From a virus, in the IMG/VR virus record IMGVR_UViG_3300042355_000507, positions 1 to 33,097 of that record: DNA of 33,097 nt; one strand, written 5' to 3'. A model generated the notes under the pieces. The model saw nothing but the letters and a program-made list of their open reading frames with translations. It did not search any database and had not been told where the DNA came from. The number at the start of each line of letters is the position of its first letter. The first letter of the stretch is position 1. Shown here piece by piece: positions 19,755-30,652 of the stretch. A program made the translations under genes and the position numbers.

Positions 19755-21671
19755 GTGCCGCGCATCCCGACGTATGACGCGCCGCAGGTAGAGAGCCGCG
19801 CACTGCCGGGCGTGCGGCAGTCCTCGGTCGCATCGCCCTCGCTCTTCGGCGCCGGCGCCGAGCAAGAGATCGCCACCGGCAGGGGGTTGATGCAAGCGGG
19901 CACCGGCATCGCCGCCGCGGCCAATCTCATGCAGGAGCGCGAGAACGCCGACCTGCTGTTCCGAGCCGAGACCGCGCTCAAGGACGAGTACCTCGCCTTC
20001 GAGGGTGACGTGCGCAACAACCGCCACGGCCAAAAGGCGTGGGGCTTGACGCGCGACACCGAAAAGTTCTTCGCCGATCAAGAGAAGAAGCACAGCGACA
20101 TCCTCACCAACGACGTGCAGCGGCAGCTTTTCAATCGCTCGGTGTCGAAGCTGCGGCAGTCCGCGGTCGGGTCGCTCTCGGCCTACGAGGCCGGCGAACG
20201 CCGCAAGTCGCTCGAAGAGTCGGCCAACGCCTCGATCGTCGGCTCGATCAACCTCGCCGCGGCCAACGCCGCTGAGTGGTACGCGAAACCGCCCGCGCAG
20301 GTAACACAACCGGCGGGCGAGGCGACCACGACGATCGGCCCCGACGGCGTGCCGGTGAGCGCTGTCAACGCCCCGGTTGAAGTCACCGCCACCCGCGACC
20401 CGATCACCGGCCTCAAGCGCGACATCCTCAACCGCGTGCAAGTGCTCGCCGACATCAACGGGTGGACGCCCGAGCGCAAGCAGTTCGAGGAGCAGAAGCA
20501 CCTCACGAACCTGCACAAGCAAGTCATCCAGAACCTCACGGACAAAGCACCGGCGAGGGCGCGCGAATACTTCGAGGCGAACAAGGAAGAGATCAACGGC
20601 GCCGAGTACGACGGCATCACGAAGGTGCTCAAGGTCGGCGAGACCAAGCAAGCCGCGTTTGACTTCGTCGAGAAGGAACTCTCGCCCGAGCTATCGCTTG
20701 AGGATCGGCTCACCGCCGCCCGCGACCGCTTCAAGGACGAACCCGAGAAGCGCGACGCCGCCATCTACGAGATCAAGACGCGCAACGCCGAGGGCGAGAC
20801 CGCCCGCCGGCAAGGCGAGCAACAGGCCGGCAATGTGGCGTGGAAGGTCATCGCCGCCGGCGGTGGCACCTCGCAAATCCCCGCCGCGACGTGGACCGCG
20901 ATGAGCGGCACCGATCAACGTCACGTCCTCGACTACCTCGACGCCAAGGTGCGGCGCGGGGAGGCCGAGACGAAGAAGGACGGCAAGGAGTTGCTCGACG
21001 ACATCGACAACCTCGACAAGGTCGAGCGGATGATCGAGCAGGGCGACATCACCGACAAGTCGCAGCTTTCCCGCTACGACGCCTTCTTCTCCAAGGGCAC
21101 GCTCAAGACGCTGCGCACCAAGATCGACAAGCGCGGCGTCGTGTCGCCCACCGACATCAAGCGCGAGTTCGAGGAGCGCAAGGGCGCCAAGGTCAACGTC
21201 GCCAAGATGAGCGACGCGGATCGCGCCGAGTGGATGGCCTTTCAAGACTACATCCTCGCCAACGTCAAGGAGACCAAGCGCCCCGAGGACATGGGCGCGT
21301 GGGCCGATCGGTGGTTCATGTCGGGCTATGGCAAGGACAACTCGATTTTCACCAACGACCCGGACACCTACGGCGAGGCGCGCGTCAAGGGTCGCAAGGA
21401 CTTCGTCATCGCCACGCCCGAGGCGGCGCAGGCCGGCGTCGACAACGCGCTCGGCATCCTCGCCAAGAACGGCGTGCCAATGCCCAAAGACAAGAAGCTC
21501 GCCCGCGATGAGTTCTACACCACGCACGTCCTTGAGGCCGAGCGGTGGGCCGGTGCGCATGGCGTGCAGAGCACCCCCGAACTCGCGGCAGCCTATGCGC
21601 TGCTCAAGCAGAACAAGAAGCCGGTCACGGCCGGCAACCTCGAATACGTGATGAAGCAACTCAAAAAATAA
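19755..21671 (+). CDS. Internal virion protein C-like (T7 gp15-type)
   Basis: 638 aa. GTG 19755 directly follows the previous TAA, with GGAGG 8 bases upstream. Starts MPRIPTYDAPQVESRALPGV. Almost wholly helical and charged, with 'ALKDEYLAFEGDVRNNRHGQ', 'RDTEKFFADQEKKHSDILTN', 'ARAREYFEANKEEINGAEYD' and 'RDEFYTTHVLEAERWAGAH', consistent with ejection-core proteins. Its position between a gp14-like gene and the giant protein matches the T7-like order 14-15-16. Likely enters the cell with DNA to form the conduit or to help translocation. The last base of its TAA is the A of the next ATG. Confidence 0.8.
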   Translation: MPRIPTYDAPQVESRALPGVRQSSVASPSLFGAGAEQEIATGRGLMQAGTGIAAAANLMQERENADLLFRAETALKDEYLAFEGDVRNNRHGQKAWGLTRDTEKFFADQEKKHSDILTNDVQRQLFNRSVSKLRQSAVGSLSAYEAGERRKSLEESANASIVGSINLAAANAAEWYAKPPAQVTQPAGEATTTIGPDGVPVSAVNAPVEVTATRDPITGLKRDILNRVQVLADINGWTPERKQFEEQKHLTNLHKQVIQNLTDKAPARAREYFEANKEEINGAEYDGITKVLKVGETKQAAFDFVEKELSPELSLEDRLTAARDRFKDEPEKRDAAIYEIKTRNAEGETARRQGEQQAGNVAWKVIAAGGGTSQIPAATWTAMSGTDQRHVLDYLDAKVRRGEAETKKDGKELLDDIDNLDKVERMIEQGDITDKSQLSRYDAFFSKGTLKTLRTKIDKRGVVSPTDIKREFEERKGAKVNVAKMSDADRAEWMAFQDYILANVKETKRPEDMGAWADRWFMSGYGKDNSIFTNDPDTYGEARVKGRKDFVIATPEAAQAGVDNALGILAKNGVPMPKDKKLARDEFYTTHVLEAERWAGAHGVQSTPELAAAYALLKQNKKPVTAGNLEYVMKQLKK

Positions 21672-24600
21672 TGGACCTGAGCGGACTGCCCGACGACACC
21701 CTCTCGCCCGGCCTCGACCTCGGCGGCCTGCCCGACACCAACGCCAAGGCGCTGCGCGAGCAGTACCGCACGACCACGAGCACGCCCGACGACACGGCCA
21801 AGGTCATCGACCTCACCAAGCGCACCGGGCTGCCGAAGCCAGTGGTCGAGCGCAACCGGCAAGCCGTCGAGCGCCAAGCGTTCGAGCCGGATTGGGGCGA
21901 CCTCGAAGTCTCGGCGCCGATCACGGTGCGCGAGTTGGCCGCCAACACCAAGCTCTTCGAGTTGGCGAACGACGACACCGAGAACATGCGCCAGATCGAG
22001 CGCACGATGAACCGCCGCAGCGCGGGCATCATCGGCGGGCCGGCGTTCGATCGCTCGCGGGGCACCGTGCAGGCGAGCATCGGCCCCGAGGCGTCGTTCT
22101 CGACGATCGTGGCCGGGCAGATGGGCGTGCTGCCCAACACCTTCGAGCGCATCCGCCAAGGCTTGCGCTTGGAGATCGCCGACCTGTTCGGCTTCGAGAC
22201 CGTACAGCAGGACGCGCAGCGCCGGCGCCAGCAGGTTGATTTTGGCGAGTCGCTGGAAACTCCCGAGTTCGACAGCACGCTCGGCCGGTGGGTCTATGGC
22301 GGCGCGGCCAACATGCAGCGCGTGGTGCCCTCGATCGCGGCCGGCATCGTCACCCGCAGCCCCGCGGTGGGCTTGGCGGCGATGGGGGCGCAGGTACAGC
22401 CCGAGACCTATGGGAAGTACCGCGCACGGGGCGGCACACCCGGCGAAGCGGCGCTCGGCTCGACGATCGAGACGGGCATCGAGGTCGGCACCGAGATGCT
22501 GCCGATGGGCTTCCTCGTCAACCGCTTCGGCAAGGCCGGGGCGACGCAGTTCATCGCCGGCTACTTGGGCCGCGAGCTTCCCACCGAACTCGTTGCAGAA
22601 GTCACGCAGGGCATCGTCGACACGGCGATCGCCAACCCTGACAAGACATGGGGCGAGTACGTCGCCGAGTTGCCAGACACCATCGGGCAGACCGTCGTAT
22701 CCACGCTGATGATGTCGGGCGGCCTCACGGTCGCCAACGAGGCCGCGCGCCGGATGGCAGGGCCGCAGGCACAGGCCGACGCCGCGACGCGCGACGCCGA
22801 TGCGCTCACCCAAATCTCTGCGCTGGCGGCAGCGTCCAAGCTGCGCACGCGCGACCCGCAGAGCTTCCAAGAGTTCGTCGCTGCCGCCAACGAGGACGGC
22901 GCGGTGCAGGACATCTACCTCGACGCCCGCACGCTGCAACAGGCCGGGATCGACCCGGTCCTGCTCGCGCAGGCATCGCCCTCGGCCGCGGCGCAACTCG
23001 AACAGGCGCTCGCCACTGGCGGCGACCTCGTGATCCCGATGTCGGAGTACGCCGCGCGGATCGCCGGCACCGACCTCGACCCGGTGCTCACCCCGCACTT
23101 GCGCACGGCCGAGGATGCGCTCTCGCTCGATGAGGCGCAGCGCTTCTATCAAGGCCAAGCCGAGGAGTTCCAGAAGGCCGCGACGAAGGTGATGGAAGAG
23201 AAGGCAGCCGACACGGCATGGGCGGCCTCGGCCAAGGCGGTCGAGACCAAGCTCTTCGACGAGTTGAAGAACGCCGGCCGCTTCACCGACGACGTGAATA
23301 CCGCCTACTCGACGCTGATGCGTGACTTCTACGTCGCCACGGCCTCGCGCCTCGGCATCACCCCCGAGGAGATGTTCGCGCGCTACCCGATCAAGGTAGC
23401 CGCCGAGCGCATGGCGGGCGACGCTAGGCGGATGGAGCAGGGGCGCAAGAGTACGCCGACAATCGACGCGGGCAACGGCGTGGTGCTGCACAAGCAAAAG
23501 GATTTCAAAACGGACGAGGGCACCTTCTCGGTGTATGACATCGAGAAGAAAGTCGAGAACGTGCGCGGCCGTGCGTCGATGTTCACGGTGTTAAAAGACC
23601 GCGAAGGCTACATCGTGCGCAATGCGATCTTGCCTGACAGCGAGAAGCGCAAAGGGGTAGCGACCGCGCTTTACACGGCCATGAACGCCGAGAGCCTCGC
23701 TACCACCGGCAAGCCGTTGCGCTCGACGCAACCGCGCACGCTGATGACGGGCGAAGTTGTCCATGAGCTTTCAGATGAGGGGGCAGCGTTATGGGATTCC
23801 TTTGTATCGAAGGGGCTTGCTGAAAAGCTCGGGGAAAAGAACTACCGATTTTTGCCGCAGCAGGCCGCCCCACAAAACCCCCTCACCAAGCTATTCCAAG
23901 CCGTCACCGACGCGCTCGGCATCACGCAGCCGCAAGAGGCCGCGCCGGTAGAGCAACCGGCACCGCAGCCCGAAGCACCGGCCGGGCCGGCGTTGGACAT
24001 GACGCAGTTCTTCCAAGGCGACAAGCCCGACCTGATCGTCCAACACAACCTCACCGCCGAGAACCTGCTGCACGCGGTAAGGATGGGCGGCATCCCGGTG
24101 CCGTCGCTGGCGATCACCAAAAAGGACACGCCGCTCACTGGCTTCGGCGAGATCACGCTGCTCGGCTCGAAGGACTTGGCCGACCCGAAGGGTTACGCCG
24201 GCACCAAGGTGTTCGGCGCCGACATCTACTCGCCGCGCTACCCGAGCATCGAGTATCAGTTCACGCCGAACATGAAGAAGCTCGCCGAGGCGAAGCTCAA
24301 GGACGGTCTCGAAGCGACTAAGTCCTATCTCGATTGGGAAGAGATCAGCCGCCGCGGCGCGGATACGCTGCGCACCGAGCCGGCCGTGCGTTGGCAGTTC
24401 CTCAAGGATCGAGGGATCGAGCCGACGATCACGCGCGTCGAACCGAAGCCGCTACCCCCGGCGTTGCAGCCGTTCGCCAACGACACGCGCGACGCCTTCG
24501 CCCTACGCGACGACCCTGCCTTCGTCGAGGCCGCCTACAAGGCATACGAGGACGTGCTCGCCGTCGCCTACGATGGCGACCGCGCAGCGGCGCAAGCCGA

Positions 24601-27600
24601 GATCGCCGACCTCAAGAAAAAGGCGGCAGACCGCGGTGTCTCGTACCTTATCCGAGACTACGCGCAGCAGGTCGAAACTTTCCAACGTGAGCAGCGCGAC
24701 GCCGGCCGCGTCGATACGGCTGCGACGAATCGCGCGATCGAGACGCAGATTTACGACCTCAATCTGCGCGATGAGCTTGAGCACTACGCCGCCGAGTTCC
24801 TGCGCGACATCAACCCGAACGAGCGCATCTTCCAAGGCTACACCTACAACGGCAACCGCCGCTATGTCGCGCACACGCTTGAGAACGTGGTGAAGATTCT
24901 CAAGAAGGAACTGCGCGGCGGCGAGGGCTTCAACTACGGCGTCGGCAGCATCCGCTCGCAGTTCACGCCGCAGTTCAAGAGCATCAAGCAAATCCGTGAG
25001 GCCAAGGACCGGCTCATGGACAAGGCCGAGTTCGAGAAAGTCAAGGAAGAGATCGACGCCGAGTTCTTCGCCCTGCGCGACCAACTCACGTCGTACCATC
25101 CGATCGGCAACGAGTTCCGCTTCGCCGACACTGTCTCGTCGATGATGTACGACGCCGCGACGATGGGCATCCCGCGCGCCCTCAAGGAGAACGGCTTTAA
25201 CGAGGTGCCGGACGAGGCGCAGCGCGAGATTGCCACCTTCCTCGGCAAGCTGCGCACGCTGCCGGCGGAATACTTCGAGGCGAAGATTCTGCGCGACGTG
25301 GACCTCACCGAGTTCTCGGGCGCTGTCGTGCCGGAAGGCGTCACGCCGAAGGTGATCGAAGCGCTCAATGCGCGGGGCGTCAAGGACATTCGCTACTACA
25401 AGAAGGGCGACGACGCCGACCGCCGGGCCAAGATCGGCGAGTTTGAAAATCTGTTCTTCCAAAACCCGAACGGATGGGGGACCGCCGAAACTGGCGACCC
25501 GTCCTCGCCCGATCCGCTCAAGCCGGGGCGGGGGTCGCGCGGCATCATCTCCTTCGGCCGGGACATCACGCAGACCCCGAGCGTCATCACGCTCTTCAAC
25601 AACGCCGACCTCTCGACCTTCCTGCACGAGATGGGGCACTTCCAACTCGAAGTGCTCGCCAACATCGCCAGCCGGCCCGACGCCCCGGCCGAGATCGCGG
25701 CCGACCTCGACGCCGTGCTCAAGTGGTTCGGCATCAAGGGCGACGAGAGCGTTGTCGGCGGCGAGACCGCCGGGCAGTTGGGGCAGCCGGCCTATCACGG
25801 CTCCCCCTACAAGTTCGACAAGTTCTCACTTGAGCATCTCGGGCGCGGCGAAGGGGCGCAGGCTTACGGGTGGGGTCTCTACTTTGCCGGCAAGAAGGGG
25901 ATTGCCGAGCACTACCGCCAAGCCCTGAGCAAGACGACGCCGGCGCACAACACGATCGACGGCAAGCGGATCACCAAGAAGCTGCTCGAAGAGTTGCAGC
26001 AATCCGACGACAACACGATGCGCGCGTTCTTCGGAGGCAAGGCAGGCGGCCGTGCAGCAGGTGTTACCAGCATCGCGAAAGCCGTCGATGACGCGATCGA
26101 GACGGCGCAGGAGAACCGGGACGACTATCAGCAGCGCCTCGACGCGCACCTCGCTAACCCGCCGCTCGCGTCGACCTACGACCCCGCCGACTACCAACGC
26201 TTCATCGCGTCCTACGATCGGCAGATCGAGGGCTTGCAGAAGCTCAAGGCCCGCATCGGCTTCAACAAGGAAACCAAGAGCGGCCAACTCTACGAGGTCG
26301 ACATCCCCGAAGAAGGCCAATACTTGCTTTGGGACAAGCCGCTGAGTGAGCAACCCGAGGCGGTCAAGGCGGCGCTTGGAAATCGCGCGATGAAAACTTC
26401 GCCGATGGTGGGCGACAAGACCTTACGCGCTTACCTGACCGACAACGGGGTCGGCAAAGGCTCGGTCCGTTCAATCGTCGAGCGGTACATCGCGGAGGCG
26501 GCGAGCGTTGAAGGTGCTCGCCCTGCGGTGGTTGCGCATTTTGAAGGTGCGACGCCCGAGGCAAAGCAAGCCGCGCTCGGCGTTCTTGACTCGCTCGCCG
26601 GTGTCGATGTCACCTTCGCCACTGTGCTCGACGACGCAAAGGGCGGGGCGACGTTTTACCGCGACCTTACCTCGGAATTTGCGTCCGACGAAGCCGCCAG
26701 CAAGTACCTCAACAGCATCGGCATCGCCGGCATCAAGTACCTCGACGGCACGAGCCGCAGCAATCAACCCTACGAGGTGGTGCTATCCACCAGCAAGGGC
26801 GTGTACGCCAAATCGCAGTTCGCCACCAAAGCGCAGGCTGAGGCTTACGCCGCGGAAAAGGCCGCGGAGGGCTTCACGACCGAAGTGCGGGACAACCCGG
26901 ACGCCACGCACAACTACGTGATCTTCGACGACAGCGCCGTCGAGATTCTCAACACGTTCTACCAAGGCGACGACACCCAAGCACCGAACCCCGACGCCCT
27001 GCCCAAGCGCCGCACCGCGCTCGAAGTGTGGCAGGCCATGAGCCTCGAAGAGAAGCGCCCCTACCACGAGCAATTTGCCCGCGGCTTCGAGGCGTACTTG
27101 TTCGAGGGCAAGGCACCGAGCCAAGAACTCACCGGCCTGTTCTCCCGCTTCCGCGCGTGGCTCATCAACGTCTACAAGTCGGTCAAGGCGCTCAACGTCG
27201 AGATCAGCGACGACATCCGCCAAGTGTTCGACCGGCTCGTCGCCACCGACGAGGCCATCAAGCAAGCCGAGGCGATGCGATCCTACGCGCCGATGTTCCC
27301 TGACGACCCCGAGGTGCAAGCCGCTGCGGCCGAGGCCACTCAGACCGCCGTGGATCAACTACAGCGCCGCTCCCTGCGCGACATGCAATGGCTCACCAAC
27401 GCGAGGGGCCGCCTGCTCAAGCAGATGCAGAAGGACGCGAAGGCCAAGCGCAAGGCGGTCGAGGACGAGGTGCGCGCCGAGGTCCGCGCGATGCCGATCT
27501 ATGCCGCGATGCACTTCCTCAAGCGCGGCGAGATGGTCGCCCCGGACGGCGAGCAGGTCAAAGTCGAGAAGGGCCACCGCCTCGACACGGCTGCGCTGGC

Positions 27601-30600
27601 CGAGATGTACCCCGAGTCGATGCTCGCCCGCCCGGCGCTCGAACGCCTGCAAGGCATGACGCGCAAGGACGGCCTGCACCCCGACCTCGTGGCCGAGATG
27701 TTCGGCTTCACGAGTGGCGATCAACTCGTGCGCGAGATCATCGCAGCCGAGAACGAGGCGCAACTCATCGAGGGCTTGACCGACCGGCGGGTGCTTGAGC
27801 GCTACGGCGATCTCGCCGACCCCGACACGCTGGCCCGCGCGGTCGACGAGGCGATCCACAACGAGATGCGGCTCAAGGTATTGGCGACCGAACTCAAGGC
27901 CGCCACGAAGGCGCAGACCCCTGTGCGCGCGATCATGCAGGCCGCCAAGGACTACGCCGCGAAAGTGTTGGCCGGCAAGAAGCTCAAGGACATCAAGCCG
28001 CGCCAGCACGCCGCGGCCGAGACCCGCGCAGGCAAGGCCGCGATGCAAGCCTTCGGCAAGGGCGACACCGCCACGCTCGCCACAGAGAAGCGCAACCAAG
28101 TCCTGCAAGGCTACCTCACCAAAATGTCTTACGAGGCGCTCGACGAGGTGGGCAAGACCCGCGACTTCTTCCGCCGGGTTGTCACTGGCAAGGACGACCA
28201 AGTGCTCAAGACGCGCGACCTCGACGTAGTCAATGCGGCCCGCGCGATCCTCGCCGCCTACGGCTTCGGGCAGAAGGCCAAGACCGCCGCCGAGTACCTC
28301 AAGGTGGTGCAGGCCAACGACCCCGAGATGTACGCCGTCCTCAAGGACCGCGTCGACTCGGCCGTCGCCGACGCCAAGCCGTTCAACGAACTCACGCTCG
28401 AAGAGATGCGCGGCCTGCGCGACGAGATCGACGCGATGTGGTATCTCGCCAAGCGCAACCGGCAGATGGAAGTCGACGGCGATCTGCTCGACCGGCAGGA
28501 GGTGCAGGCGGCGCTGCGCGAGCGCATGGAGGAGATCGGCATCCCCGACACCGTGCCGGGGGAGGGGAGTGCGATCACCCCCGCCGAGGAGCGCCTGCGC
28601 AAGCTGCAAACCCTGCGCGCCGCGGCCCGCCGTGTCGAGTCGTGGGCCGAGGCCAAGGACGGCGGGGCCGGTGCTGGACCTTTCTGGCGCTACATCTGGA
28701 ACACGATCAAAGACCCGGCGAACCGCTACCGGGCCGAGAAGGGTCAAGCGCTCAAGGCACTGCGCGAGGCGTTCGACGCGATCCCCGGCATGCAGCGCGG
28801 CCTCATCGACGCGCCCGAGCTTGGCTACACCTTCGGCAAGGACGAGGGCGGCGTGGGCATGTCCGAACTCATGCACGCCCTGCTGCACACCGGCAACGAA
28901 AGCAACAAGCGCAAGCTCCTGCTTGGCCGCAAGTGGGCCACCGAGAGCGCCGACGGTACGCTCAACACCGCACGGTGGGACGCCTTCATCGAGCGCATGC
29001 ACCAAGAAGGCCGCATCACCAAGGCGCACTACGACGCCCGCCAACAGATTTGGGACATCCTCGAATCGCTCAAGCCGCAGGCGCAGAAGGCCCACCGTGA
29101 CGTGTTCGGCAAGTATTTCGCCGAGGTCACGGCCGAGGCGCAGGTCACGCCGTTCGGCACCTACCGGGGCGGCTACGTGCCAGCCATCGCCGACACGCGG
29201 GTCGTCAACGACGCCGCCCTGCGCAAGCTCGCCGAACAGGAGAACGAGGGGATGGCCTACGCCTTCCCGACCACGTCCAAGGGCTTCACCAAGTCGCGCG
29301 TCGATTACAACCGGCCGCTGCTGCTCGACCTGCGCACGCTCTCGCAGCACATCGACAAGGTGCTGCTGTTCTCGCACATGGAGCAGCCGGTGCGCGACGT
29401 GCGCCGGGTGCTGATGTCGCCGGAAGTCTCGCAGGCATTGACCCGGATCGACCCGGCCGCCTACGACGGCCTGCTGATCCCTTGGCTCAACCGCTCGGCC
29501 AAGCAGCAGGTCGAGGCGCCGATCCCCGGCGATCGCGGACTGATGCGCTTCGTCTCCATCGCCCGCCAGCGCGCCGGCATGGCCGCGATGCTCGCCAACG
29601 TGTCGAACACCGCGCAGCAGATCACCGGCTTCTCGCTGGCCGCGATCAAGGTCAAGCCGCGCTACCTGCTCGGCGCGATGGCCGAGTACGCCAAGGCGCC
29701 GAAGGTGGTGACGCAGACAGTGGCCGAAGCCTCGCCCTACATGGCGACGCGCATGGAGAACGAGGTCGCGCAGATGATCGACGGCATCAACGACATCCTG
29801 CTCGACCCGAGCCTCTACGAGAAGGCGCAGGCGTGGACGGCCAAGCATGCCTACTTCATGCAATCGGCAGTCGACAACGTGATGTCGCCGATCGTGTGGC
29901 TGGCCGCCTACAACGAGGCGATCGAGGGCGGGGCCAGCGAGCTTGACGCCAAGCGGCTCGCCGACGGCACCGTGCGGCAGACGCAGGGCACCACGCAGCC
30001 CGAGGACGTGAGCCGGATCGAGACCGGCAACGCCTTCTGGCGCCTGTTCGCGCAGTTCGCCGGCTACTTCAACATGCAGGCCAACGTGCTCGGCACCCGC
30101 TACGCGCAGACCGCCGAGGAGCTTGGCGTGCGCAAGGGCGCGGGGCGGATGCTCTACATCACGACCTTCGGCTTCCTCATCCCGGCGTGGGTGGCCGAGG
30201 CCATCGCGCAGATGTTCCGCGGCGGGCCGGATGACGAGGACAAGGACGGCGAATACCTCGACGATTGGCTCATGGCCGTGTTCGGCTTCGGCACCCTGCG
30301 CACCGCCACGGCGATGATCCCGGTGGCGGGGCAGGGCATCAACGCCGTGGTCAACGCCGCCAACACCAAGCCCTACGACGACCGCATCGCCACAGCCCCG
30401 GCGGTGAGCATGATCGAGAGCGCCGCCCGCGCGCCGTCGTCGGTCTACAAGGCGATCGTCGACGACGCCAGCAAGCAGAAGGCGGTGCGCGACGTGGCGA
30501 CGCTCATCACGCTCACGACCGGCCTGCCGGCGAGCGCCTTGGCCCGGCCGGTGGGGTATGGCGTTGGCGTGGCCGCCGGCGAGATTCAGCCCGAGAACGA

Positions 30601-30652
30601 GGCCGACTTCGCGCGTGGCGTGATCTCGGGCGCGAAGGGCCAGCAGCGCTAA
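21671..30652 (+). CDS. Giant polyvalent internal virion protein (zincin, ADP-ribosyltransferase-like and GNAT-like domains)
   Basis: 2993 aa from ATG 21671 (MDLSGLPDDTLSPGLDLGGL). Order seen: N-terminal charged part; a Gly/Ala-rich hydrophobic region (about 210-370, 'IRQGLRLEIADLFGFETVQQ', 'AAGIVTRSPAVGLAAMGAQV'); a GNAT-like segment (about 594-730, 'SEKRKGVATALYTAMN'); a conserved block 'LIVQHNLTAENLLHAVRMGG' (about 785); a zincin with HEMGH (1319-1323); an ADP-ribosyltransferase-like domain (about 1372-1755, 'AYHGSPYKFDKFSLEHLG', 'GWGLYFA', 'VIFDDSAVEIL'); then 'RPYHEQFARGFEAYLFEGKA', the usual later part of such zincins; and long helical regions to the end. It is encoded where T7 gene 16 lies, so it is probably injected with DNA to act on host envelope or proteins. 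Enzyme activities are inferred from motifs only. Confidence 0.88.
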   Translation: MDLSGLPDDTLSPGLDLGGLPDTNAKALREQYRTTTSTPDDTAKVIDLTKRTGLPKPVVERNRQAVERQAFEPDWGDLEVSAPITVRELAANTKLFELANDDTENMRQIERTMNRRSAGIIGGPAFDRSRGTVQASIGPEASFSTIVAGQMGVLPNTFERIRQGLRLEIADLFGFETVQQDAQRRRQQVDFGESLETPEFDSTLGRWVYGGAANMQRVVPSIAAGIVTRSPAVGLAAMGAQVQPETYGKYRARGGTPGEAALGSTIETGIEVGTEMLPMGFLVNRFGKAGATQFIAGYLGRELPTELVAEVTQGIVDTAIANPDKTWGEYVAELPDTIGQTVVSTLMMSGGLTVANEAARRMAGPQAQADAATRDADALTQISALAAASKLRTRDPQSFQEFVAAANEDGAVQDIYLDARTLQQAGIDPVLLAQASPSAAAQLEQALATGGDLVIPMSEYAARIAGTDLDPVLTPHLRTAEDALSLDEAQRFYQGQAEEFQKAATKVMEEKAADTAWAASAKAVETKLFDELKNAGRFTDDVNTAYSTLMRDFYVATASRLGITPEEMFARYPIKVAAERMAGDARRMEQGRKSTPTIDAGNGVVLHKQKDFKTDEGTFSVYDIEKKVENVRGRASMFTVLKDREGYIVRNAILPDSEKRKGVATALYTAMNAESLATTGKPLRSTQPRTLMTGEVVHELSDEGAALWDSFVSKGLAEKLGEKNYRFLPQQAAPQNPLTKLFQAVTDALGITQPQEAAPVEQPAPQPEAPAGPALDMTQFFQGDKPDLIVQHNLTAENLLHAVRMGGIPVPSLAITKKDTPLTGFGEITLLGSKDLADPKGYAGTKVFGADIYSPRYPSIEYQFTPNMKKLAEAKLKDGLEATKSYLDWEEISRRGADTLRTEPAVRWQFLKDRGIEPTITRVEPKPLPPALQPFANDTRDAFALRDDPAFVEAAYKAYEDVLAVAYDGDRAAAQAEIADLKKKAADRGVSYLIRDYAQQVETFQREQRDAGRVDTAATNRAIETQIYDLNLRDELEHYAAEFLRDINPNERIFQGYTYNGNRRYVAHTLENVVKILKKELRGGEGFNYGVGSIRSQFTPQFKSIKQIREAKDRLMDKAEFEKVKEEIDAEFFALRDQLTSYHPIGNEFRFADTVSSMMYDAATMGIPRALKENGFNEVPDEAQREIATFLGKLRTLPAEYFEAKILRDVDLTEFSGAVVPEGVTPKVIEALNARGVKDIRYYKKGDDADRRAKIGEFENLFFQNPNGWGTAETGDPSSPDPLKPGRGSRGIISFGRDITQTPSVITLFNNADLSTFLHEMGHFQLEVLANIASRPDAPAEIAADLDAVLKWFGIKGDESVVGGETAGQLGQPAYHGSPYKFDKFSLEHLGRGEGAQAYGWGLYFAGKKGIAEHYRQALSKTTPAHNTIDGKRITKKLLEELQQSDDNTMRAFFGGKAGGRAAGVTSIAKAVDDAIETAQENRDDYQQRLDAHLANPPLASTYDPADYQRFIASYDRQIEGLQKLKARIGFNKETKSGQLYEVDIPEEGQYLLWDKPLSEQPEAVKAALGNRAMKTSPMVGDKTLRAYLTDNGVGKGSVRSIVERYIAEAASVEGARPAVVAHFEGATPEAKQAALGVLDSLAGVDVTFATVLDDAKGGATFYRDLTSEFASDEAASKYLNSIGIAGIKYLDGTSRSNQPYEVVLSTSKGVYAKSQFATKAQAEAYAAEKAAEGFTTEVRDNPDATHNYVIFDDSAVEILNTFYQGDDTQAPNPDALPKRRTALEVWQAMSLEEKRPYHEQFARGFEAYLFEGKAPSQELTGLFSRFRAWLINVYKSVKALNVEISDDIRQVFDRLVATDEAIKQAEAMRSYAPMFPDDPEVQAAAAEATQTAVDQLQRRSLRDMQWLTNARGRLLKQMQKDAKAKRKAVEDEVRAEVRAMPIYAAMHFLKRGEMVAPDGEQVKVEKGHRLDTAALAEMYPESMLARPALERLQGMTRKDGLHPDLVAEMFGFTSGDQLVREIIAAENEAQLIEGLTDRRVLERYGDLADPDTLARAVDEAIHNEMRLKVLATELKAATKAQTPVRAIMQAAKDYAAKVLAGKKLKDIKPRQHAAAETRAGKAAMQAFGKGDTATLATEKRNQVLQGYLTKMSYEALDEVGKTRDFFRRVVTGKDDQVLKTRDLDVVNAARAILAAYGFGQKAKTAAEYLKVVQANDPEMYAVLKDRVDSAVADAKPFNELTLEEMRGLRDEIDAMWYLAKRNRQMEVDGDLLDRQEVQAALRERMEEIGIPDTVPGEGSAITPAEERLRKLQTLRAAARRVESWAEAKDGGAGAGPFWRYIWNTIKDPANRYRAEKGQALKALREAFDAIPGMQRGLIDAPELGYTFGKDEGGVGMSELMHALLHTGNESNKRKLLLGRKWATESADGTLNTARWDAFIERMHQEGRITKAHYDARQQIWDILESLKPQAQKAHRDVFGKYFAEVTAEAQVTPFGTYRGGYVPAIADTRVVNDAALRKLAEQENEGMAYAFPTTSKGFTKSRVDYNRPLLLDLRTLSQHIDKVLLFSHMEQPVRDVRRVLMSPEVSQALTRIDPAAYDGLLIPWLNRSAKQQVEAPIPGDRGLMRFVSIARQRAGMAAMLANVSNTAQQITGFSLAAIKVKPRYLLGAMAEYAKAPKVVTQTVAEASPYMATRMENEVAQMIDGINDILLDPSLYEKAQAWTAKHAYFMQSAVDNVMSPIVWLAAYNEAIEGGASELDAKRLADGTVRQTQGTTQPEDVSRIETGNAFWRLFAQFAGYFNMQANVLGTRYAQTAEELGVRKGAGRMLYITTFGFLIPAWVAEAIAQMFRGGPDDEDKDGEYLDDWLMAVFGFGTLRTATAMIPVAGQGINAVVNAANTKPYDDRIATAPAVSMIESAARAPSSVYKAIVDDASKQKAVRDVATLITLTTGLPASALARPVGYGVGVAAGEIQPENEADFARGVISGAKGQQR

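Follow-up and report, generated by a model that had tools for sequence, protein, structure and literature searches.

We analysed a 33,097 nt stretch of viral DNA (IMG/VR virus record IMGVR_UViG_3300042355_000507, positions 1 to 33,097), referred to here as the window, which carries on its plus strand one giant open reading frame (ORF). It is well supported by comparison with relatives that the product of this ORF contains an ADP-ribosyltransferase (ART)-like domain nested inside a zinc metallopeptidase (MPTase). The features of the nested unit, with the strings quoted for it in an initial annotation of the DNA, are as follows.

21671..30652, plus strand: giant polyvalent protein ORF, single and intact, 2993 aa from its ATG (phrog_9880, E 0)
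25532..25741, plus strand: N-terminal half of the MPTase with the HEMGH helix (HEMGH at 25625-25639; H, E and H invariant; helices with pLDDT >90 in the joint protease and ART model)
25790..26950, plus strand: ART domain (H1418 at 25796-25798, Y1446 at 25880-25882, N1790 at 26912-26914), from Pfam, conservation, model and fold matches
25790-25843, plus strand: ART-start string AYHGSPYKFDKFSLEHLG
25862-25888, plus strand: ART string AYGWGLYFA
26918-26950, plus strand: ART-end string VIFDDSAVEIL
27017..27319, plus strand: C-terminal half of the MPTase (helix HEQFARGFE at 27065-27091; H1841, E1842 and E1849 invariant)
27056-27115, plus strand: string RPYHEQFARGFEAYLFEGKA of the C-terminal protease block (C block)

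Residue numbers such as H1418 refer to the translation P0001, which begins at a GTG 42 codons 5′ of the ATG at 21671. This ATG is most likely the true start because it forms a TAATG overlap with the stop of the upstream endolysin-like gene. HEMGH lies at residues 1319-1323 counted from the ATG, as the initial annotation had it, and at 1361-1365 of P0001.

The HEMGH motif, the ART strings and the C-block strings were all found in one frame of the single ORF. The two protease blocks had been placed about 400 residues apart; the gap is indeed long, although the spacing from HEMGH to RPYHEQ, at 477 residues, is somewhat greater than that. The expectation that a short loop joins the two blocks in related proteins was borne out: among 162 non-redundant relatives taken from viral contigs, 153 have only 11-64 residues separating HExxH from the C block, and nine, the window (466) among them, have 100-466. 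In a MAFFT alignment the insert-free relatives matched both blocks and placed 0-3 residues across the approximately 411 inserted positions, among them the Propionivibrio dicarboxylicus DSM 5885 prophage L005, with essentially nothing between the blocks. Rows containing only an ART were left out of this alignment, since the protease blocks fell in the wrong place when they were included. The flanking blocks are taken as one metallopeptidase domain because the key residues of both helices are invariant, because the polyvalent MPTase is defined by these two helices in Iyer et al. (2017, PMC5512222), and because CLCA_X is treated as a single domain by Lenart et al. (2013, PMC3650047); given the gap of 11-64 residues in 153 of the 162 relatives against approximately 466 here, the ART is then best read as an insertion. 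An assembly artefact was considered and rejected: both linkers of the insert recur in independent contigs, no stop interrupts the frame, and G+C does not shift across the insert.

Conservation and modelling indicate that the nested domain is probably a whole HYx-type ART. The catalytic H is present in at least 90% of the ART family alignment (A3) and the Y is invariant; both are kept in the window (H1418, Y1446), so the loss of NAD-binding residues that would have spoken against the original assignment did not occur. Near where a third catalytic residue (D or E) would be expected, the family has an invariant asparagine (N1790, in the NYVIF strand), and the neighbouring D residues are variable. 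A model of the ART alone (mean pLDDT 82) matched known ADP-ribosyltransferases over its full length (residues 1-396), with related toxins also among the end-to-end matches; Z scores were moderate, at 8.8 over 134 residues for the diphtheria-toxin catalytic domain and 7.9 over 118 for tankyrase-2. Two additions decorate the domain: a helical hairpin and an elaboration of beta-beta-alpha-beta type that resembles SPOR. As the match to Pfam ART-PolyVal (PF18760; E 6e-5) scores 24.3 bits against a gathering score of 31.2, we call the domain ART-like on the strength of its fold and residues and do not count it as a formal member of PF18760. The beta-beta-alpha-beta piece precedes the last ART strands (window 26680-26905) and has weak SPOR similarity (Pfam E 0.02); a seemingly similar piece is present in the ARTs of L004, L019 and L020.

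In the protease, H32, E33 and H36 of the first helix and H512, E513 and E520 of the second (alignment numbering) were invariant in 48 of 48 aligned rows, and HEMGH was invariant in both family alignments (A2 and A4). The second helix contributes the invariant E1842 and E1849, the latter being a candidate third zinc ligand. A profile search with the MPTase returned only weak Spartan matches (E about 0.55). The domain is directly homologous to the Bbp10 MPTase of Bordetella phage BPP-1, and this kinship places it, by sequence, in the CLCA_X-type zincin family. Natural relatives with a dead protease were sought without success; every relative with a C block also has HExxH.

The loop that holds the ART is occupied by other cargo in other phages. 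Besides the window, eight of the nine long-gap relatives have inserts there: an ART-PolyVal domain in L006 (E 3e-25), an ART-like domain in L021 (which has another ART further along), a different ART-like region plus a second small domain in L039 (by eye, without a Pfam hit), a GNAT-like domain in L079 (weak Pfam match), small YHGG ART-like domains placed earlier in the loop in L085 and L244 (by eye), and unknown sequences in the remaining two. The nesting is thus not a fixed protease-ART partnership. The proportion of nine in 162 is no population frequency, as the searches favour certain loop lengths. In the window the insert is joined to the protease by two linkers:

25742..25786, plus strand: N linker, ending in the predicted processing site LGQ↓P (25778-25786; the arrow marks the predicted cut); 19/28 identical to L006
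26966..27016, plus strand: C linker GDDTQAPNPDALPKRR; 22/37 identical to L006, 18/38 to L039 and 16/37 to L021

The window and L006 have both linkers in common while their cargo is without significant similarity, and parts of these linkers recur in L021 and L039. A search with a linker DNA pattern returned only the two known relatives and one unrelated ORF. Relatives of the cargo also occur serially, upstream of an MPTase: that of the window ART in L002, that of the L006 ART in L006 itself, that of L021 in L002 and that of L085 in L062. On the C-block tree the insert label switches 8 times, and supported branches make at least 3 of these changes necessary; a supported seven-member clade contains three proteins with different inserts and four without. 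Linkers, serial relatives and label changes together argue that cargo moves in and out of the loop, and that the HExxH helix and the Glu helix enclose an old slot whose contents are exchangeable. Two further observations concern this loop. The near-identical proteases of L079, L050, L057 and L062, on closely related contigs, have inserts that differ or are absent (the L079 and L062 C blocks are 96% identical), which would imply very fast turnover of the slot. A stretch of L021 (6001-8004) has two ART-like inserts in one MPTase, the second between WMTDVYKSF and DEIRAVMDRL, and each is flanked on both sides by LGQ, LAQ or LKQ motifs.

A short motif, hydrophobic-x-Gln ([LIVMFYW]-x-Q), recurs at the borders of these domains. 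Scored within the 14 residues that precede the RG anchor of the MPTase, it was present in 138 of 150 relatives, compared with 24% and 15% in control windows; no other residue in place of Gln exceeded 20%, and the domains upstream of it are unrelated among the sequences that have it. With the rule fixed beforehand, it was found in 45 of 49 cases against 21% in a held-out set of 59 non-redundant prophage loci, all from previously unused genomes, a set picked by two-block match and thus, like the first, no guide to how often the slot is filled. The window is one of the twelve misses in the 14-residue test, its LFFQ↓N lying further upstream. Throughout the variable N-terminal regions Gln was the most enriched of the twenty residues in the pattern (576 occurrences against 320 expected), and in the C-terminal region it ranked 11-15. 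In addition to LGQ1414↓P before the ART, the window has three predicted sites:

24008..24016, plus strand: predicted processing site FFQ↓G before the PBECR5 domain (sequence; motif class tested)
25454..25462, plus strand: predicted processing site FFQ↓N upstream of the MPTase (sequence)
26957..26965, plus strand: predicted processing site FYQ1807↓G at the ART end (C-flank motif statistics in the ART family)

The window ART is therefore flanked on both sides. Across the ART family the motif stands directly before the YHG strand in 38 of 45 proteins with this MPTase and in 4 of 57 intact proteins without it, at the ART end in 29/33 and 8/44, and at both ends in 28/33 and 2/44, counts whose Fisher values overstate independence since the ART rows are related by descent. 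For a second module type, which starts FKxWFGxSKVVD, the figures are 24/25 with the MPTase and 1/5 without. The motif thus goes with the protease and not with the fold of the cargo. A divergent branch (L007, L008, L010, L018 and L023), with C-block identity of only about 30%, still has LFQ, FFQ or FLQ before its ARTs, several of which are in tandem.

The remainder of the protein is that of a phage polyvalent protein, that is, a large protein uniting catalytic and LPD domains, here PBECR5 and LPD22 by Pfam match together with the MPTase and the ART:

21758..22027, plus strand: LPD22 domain (Pfam E 1.7e-19)
24023..24289, plus strand: PBECR5 nuclease-like domain (Pfam E 1.1e-21)

The domain order is LPD22, PBECR5, MPTase N half (HEMGH), ART, MPTase C half (HEQFARGFE) and a long conserved C-terminal region (phrog_9880). 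The gene is flanked by a tail protein gene and the endolysin-like gene at one end and by a tail-spike gene at the other, and the protein is predicted to be packaged in the virion and injected. Residues ~645-770 (window 23450-23860) have by eye the look of a GNAT acetyltransferase (KRKGVATALY), without a Pfam match, and this region ends close to LPQ↓Q and LFQ↓A motifs.

We consider it probable that the CLCA_X zincin processes the injected polyprotein after hydrophobic-x-Gln, and that the slot-borne ART is thereby freed and modifies host proteins early in infection. Cuts at the domain borders, in the window after Q824, Q1306, Q1414 and Q1807, would release PBECR5-containing and ART fragments, with Q1414 and Q1807 together freeing an ART of 393 residues and leaving the protease as two pieces, possibly still associated. 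The MPTase is proposed as the cutter because CLCA relatives self-cleave, because all relatives with a C block keep HExxH, and because autoprocessing was proposed by Iyer et al. (2017). The pair of effector weapons envisaged in the initial annotation is not supported, as kinship with self-cleaving CLCA and the border motifs make the protease more likely to be a processing enzyme than a second weapon. A bolder version, which we put forward tentatively and with somewhat less than even confidence, sees a self-loading launcher, in which the slot between the zinc-ligand helices accepts interchangeable effector cassettes flanked by the protease's own sites and the enzyme excises its own cargo, surviving or dying as a split enzyme; the motif would then be the processing code of CLCA_X polyvalent proteins in general.

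Several points count against self-processing, and some of them favour other explanations. The literature searched yielded nothing on self-cleavage of polyvalent proteins and no proteolysis data for the family, and the N4 virion RNA polymerase, with its zincin of a related kind, enters the virion uncleaved (PMC5512222). No structural model split the two protease blocks into different domains, as the initial annotation had allowed for, but the joint protease and ART model is itself of low confidence (mean pLDDT 64, pTM 0.43), and its fold matches were dominated by a poorly modelled helical hairpin, with no zincin among the matches listed. A strict cassette rule is also contradicted by inserts without an N-side motif (L039, L050 and L244) or without clear flanking motifs (L057 and L079). 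These inserts would suit an ART that stays attached in a tolerant surface loop, protease and ART acting as a bifunctional effector on host proteins; insertion into loops at tolerated sites is common in protein evolution, and the ART fold is complete. We nevertheless judge this rather unlikely, since the ART is flanked at both ends mostly where the MPTase is present, and since the motif is found in 28 of 153 insert-free loops, below the 32% expected, but on the C side of 8 of 10 inserts (the tenth being the second insert of L021, scored by eye).

Correlation does not name the enzyme, and the glutamine motifs could be real cleavage sites cut by another phage or host protease, the MPTase serving some other purpose. 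For P1 DarA, for example, the cutting enzyme is the prohead protease Pro (PMC12810830), and L020 and L325, both intact ORFs, have the motif at both ART ends without a CLCA_X-type MPTase in the available sequence; their sites may belong to another protease clade or to a partner encoded elsewhere. Against this, the motif is strongly linked to the presence of the MPTase over two module types and the characterised relatives of the family self-cleave, which makes a foreign cutter improbable. Least plausible by far is that hydrophobic-x-Gln belongs structurally to the MPTase edge or to an ART strand, or is a recombination scar. The motif does adjoin conserved folds, and its inheritance is compatible with the ART tree, which is weakly supported, has only one well-supported independent pair and leaves room for shared descent; but its distance to the MPTase anchor varies from 0 to 11 or more residues, it is mostly missing from members of this ART family that occur without the MPTase, and it precedes two unlike module types.

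If self-processing after hydrophobic-x-Gln holds, the motif would give the precise ends of the fragments expected from hundreds of phage proteins, and domain borders, hence hidden effector domains, could be read from sequence. The slot displays effector swapping inside the active-site loop of an enzyme, an unusual route to reloading a weapon. Autoprocessing of polyvalent proteins has been suspected since 2017, with no cleavage site named in those parts of the literature that were searched, and this old idea of self-cutting giant proteins becomes testable site by site.

Of the known systems, the closest are the polyvalent proteins of phages and conjugative elements, for which autoproteolytic processing has been proposed (Iyer et al. 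2017, PMC5512222). As in that account, the window protein combines zincin MPTase, ART, PBECR and LPD domains in one giant polypeptide; unlike there, its ART sits inside the MPTase and a candidate cleavage site is defined. The main text of that paper does not use the words "inserted", "insertion" or "linker", and no cleavage motif was seen in its passages on processing that were read; the candidate motif and the exchangeable slot go beyond what the searched text of that paper describes. The CLCA_X seed includes residues 700-1000 of BPP-1 Bbp10, treated as one protease domain, and in its CLCA relatives a conserved site is where self-cleavage takes place (PMC3650047). Bbp10 has a short loop where the window MPTase has an ART-filled one. 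The zinc ligand proposed for CLCA_X is an Asp after HExxH (PMC3650047), whereas the conserved residues of the window MPTase include E1369 and the two Glu of the second helix. Gene order in the window resembles that of BPP-1, in which bbp10 comes after bbp11 and before bbp9 and mtd. Like ART-PolyVal/Tox-ART-HYD2 (PF18760), the window ART has the YHG strand with its H and GxGxYFA with its Y, but it differs in its sub-threshold score, its hairpin and SPOR-like elaboration, and the invariant N at the NYVIF strand. The nearest ART relative, L002 (IMG/VR 3300035373_000028), belongs to the same ART family and has the same end motif (KYYQ) and an MPTase C block 78% identical to that of the window; its ART, in contrast, is serial, directly upstream of the MPTase, and its loop is empty.
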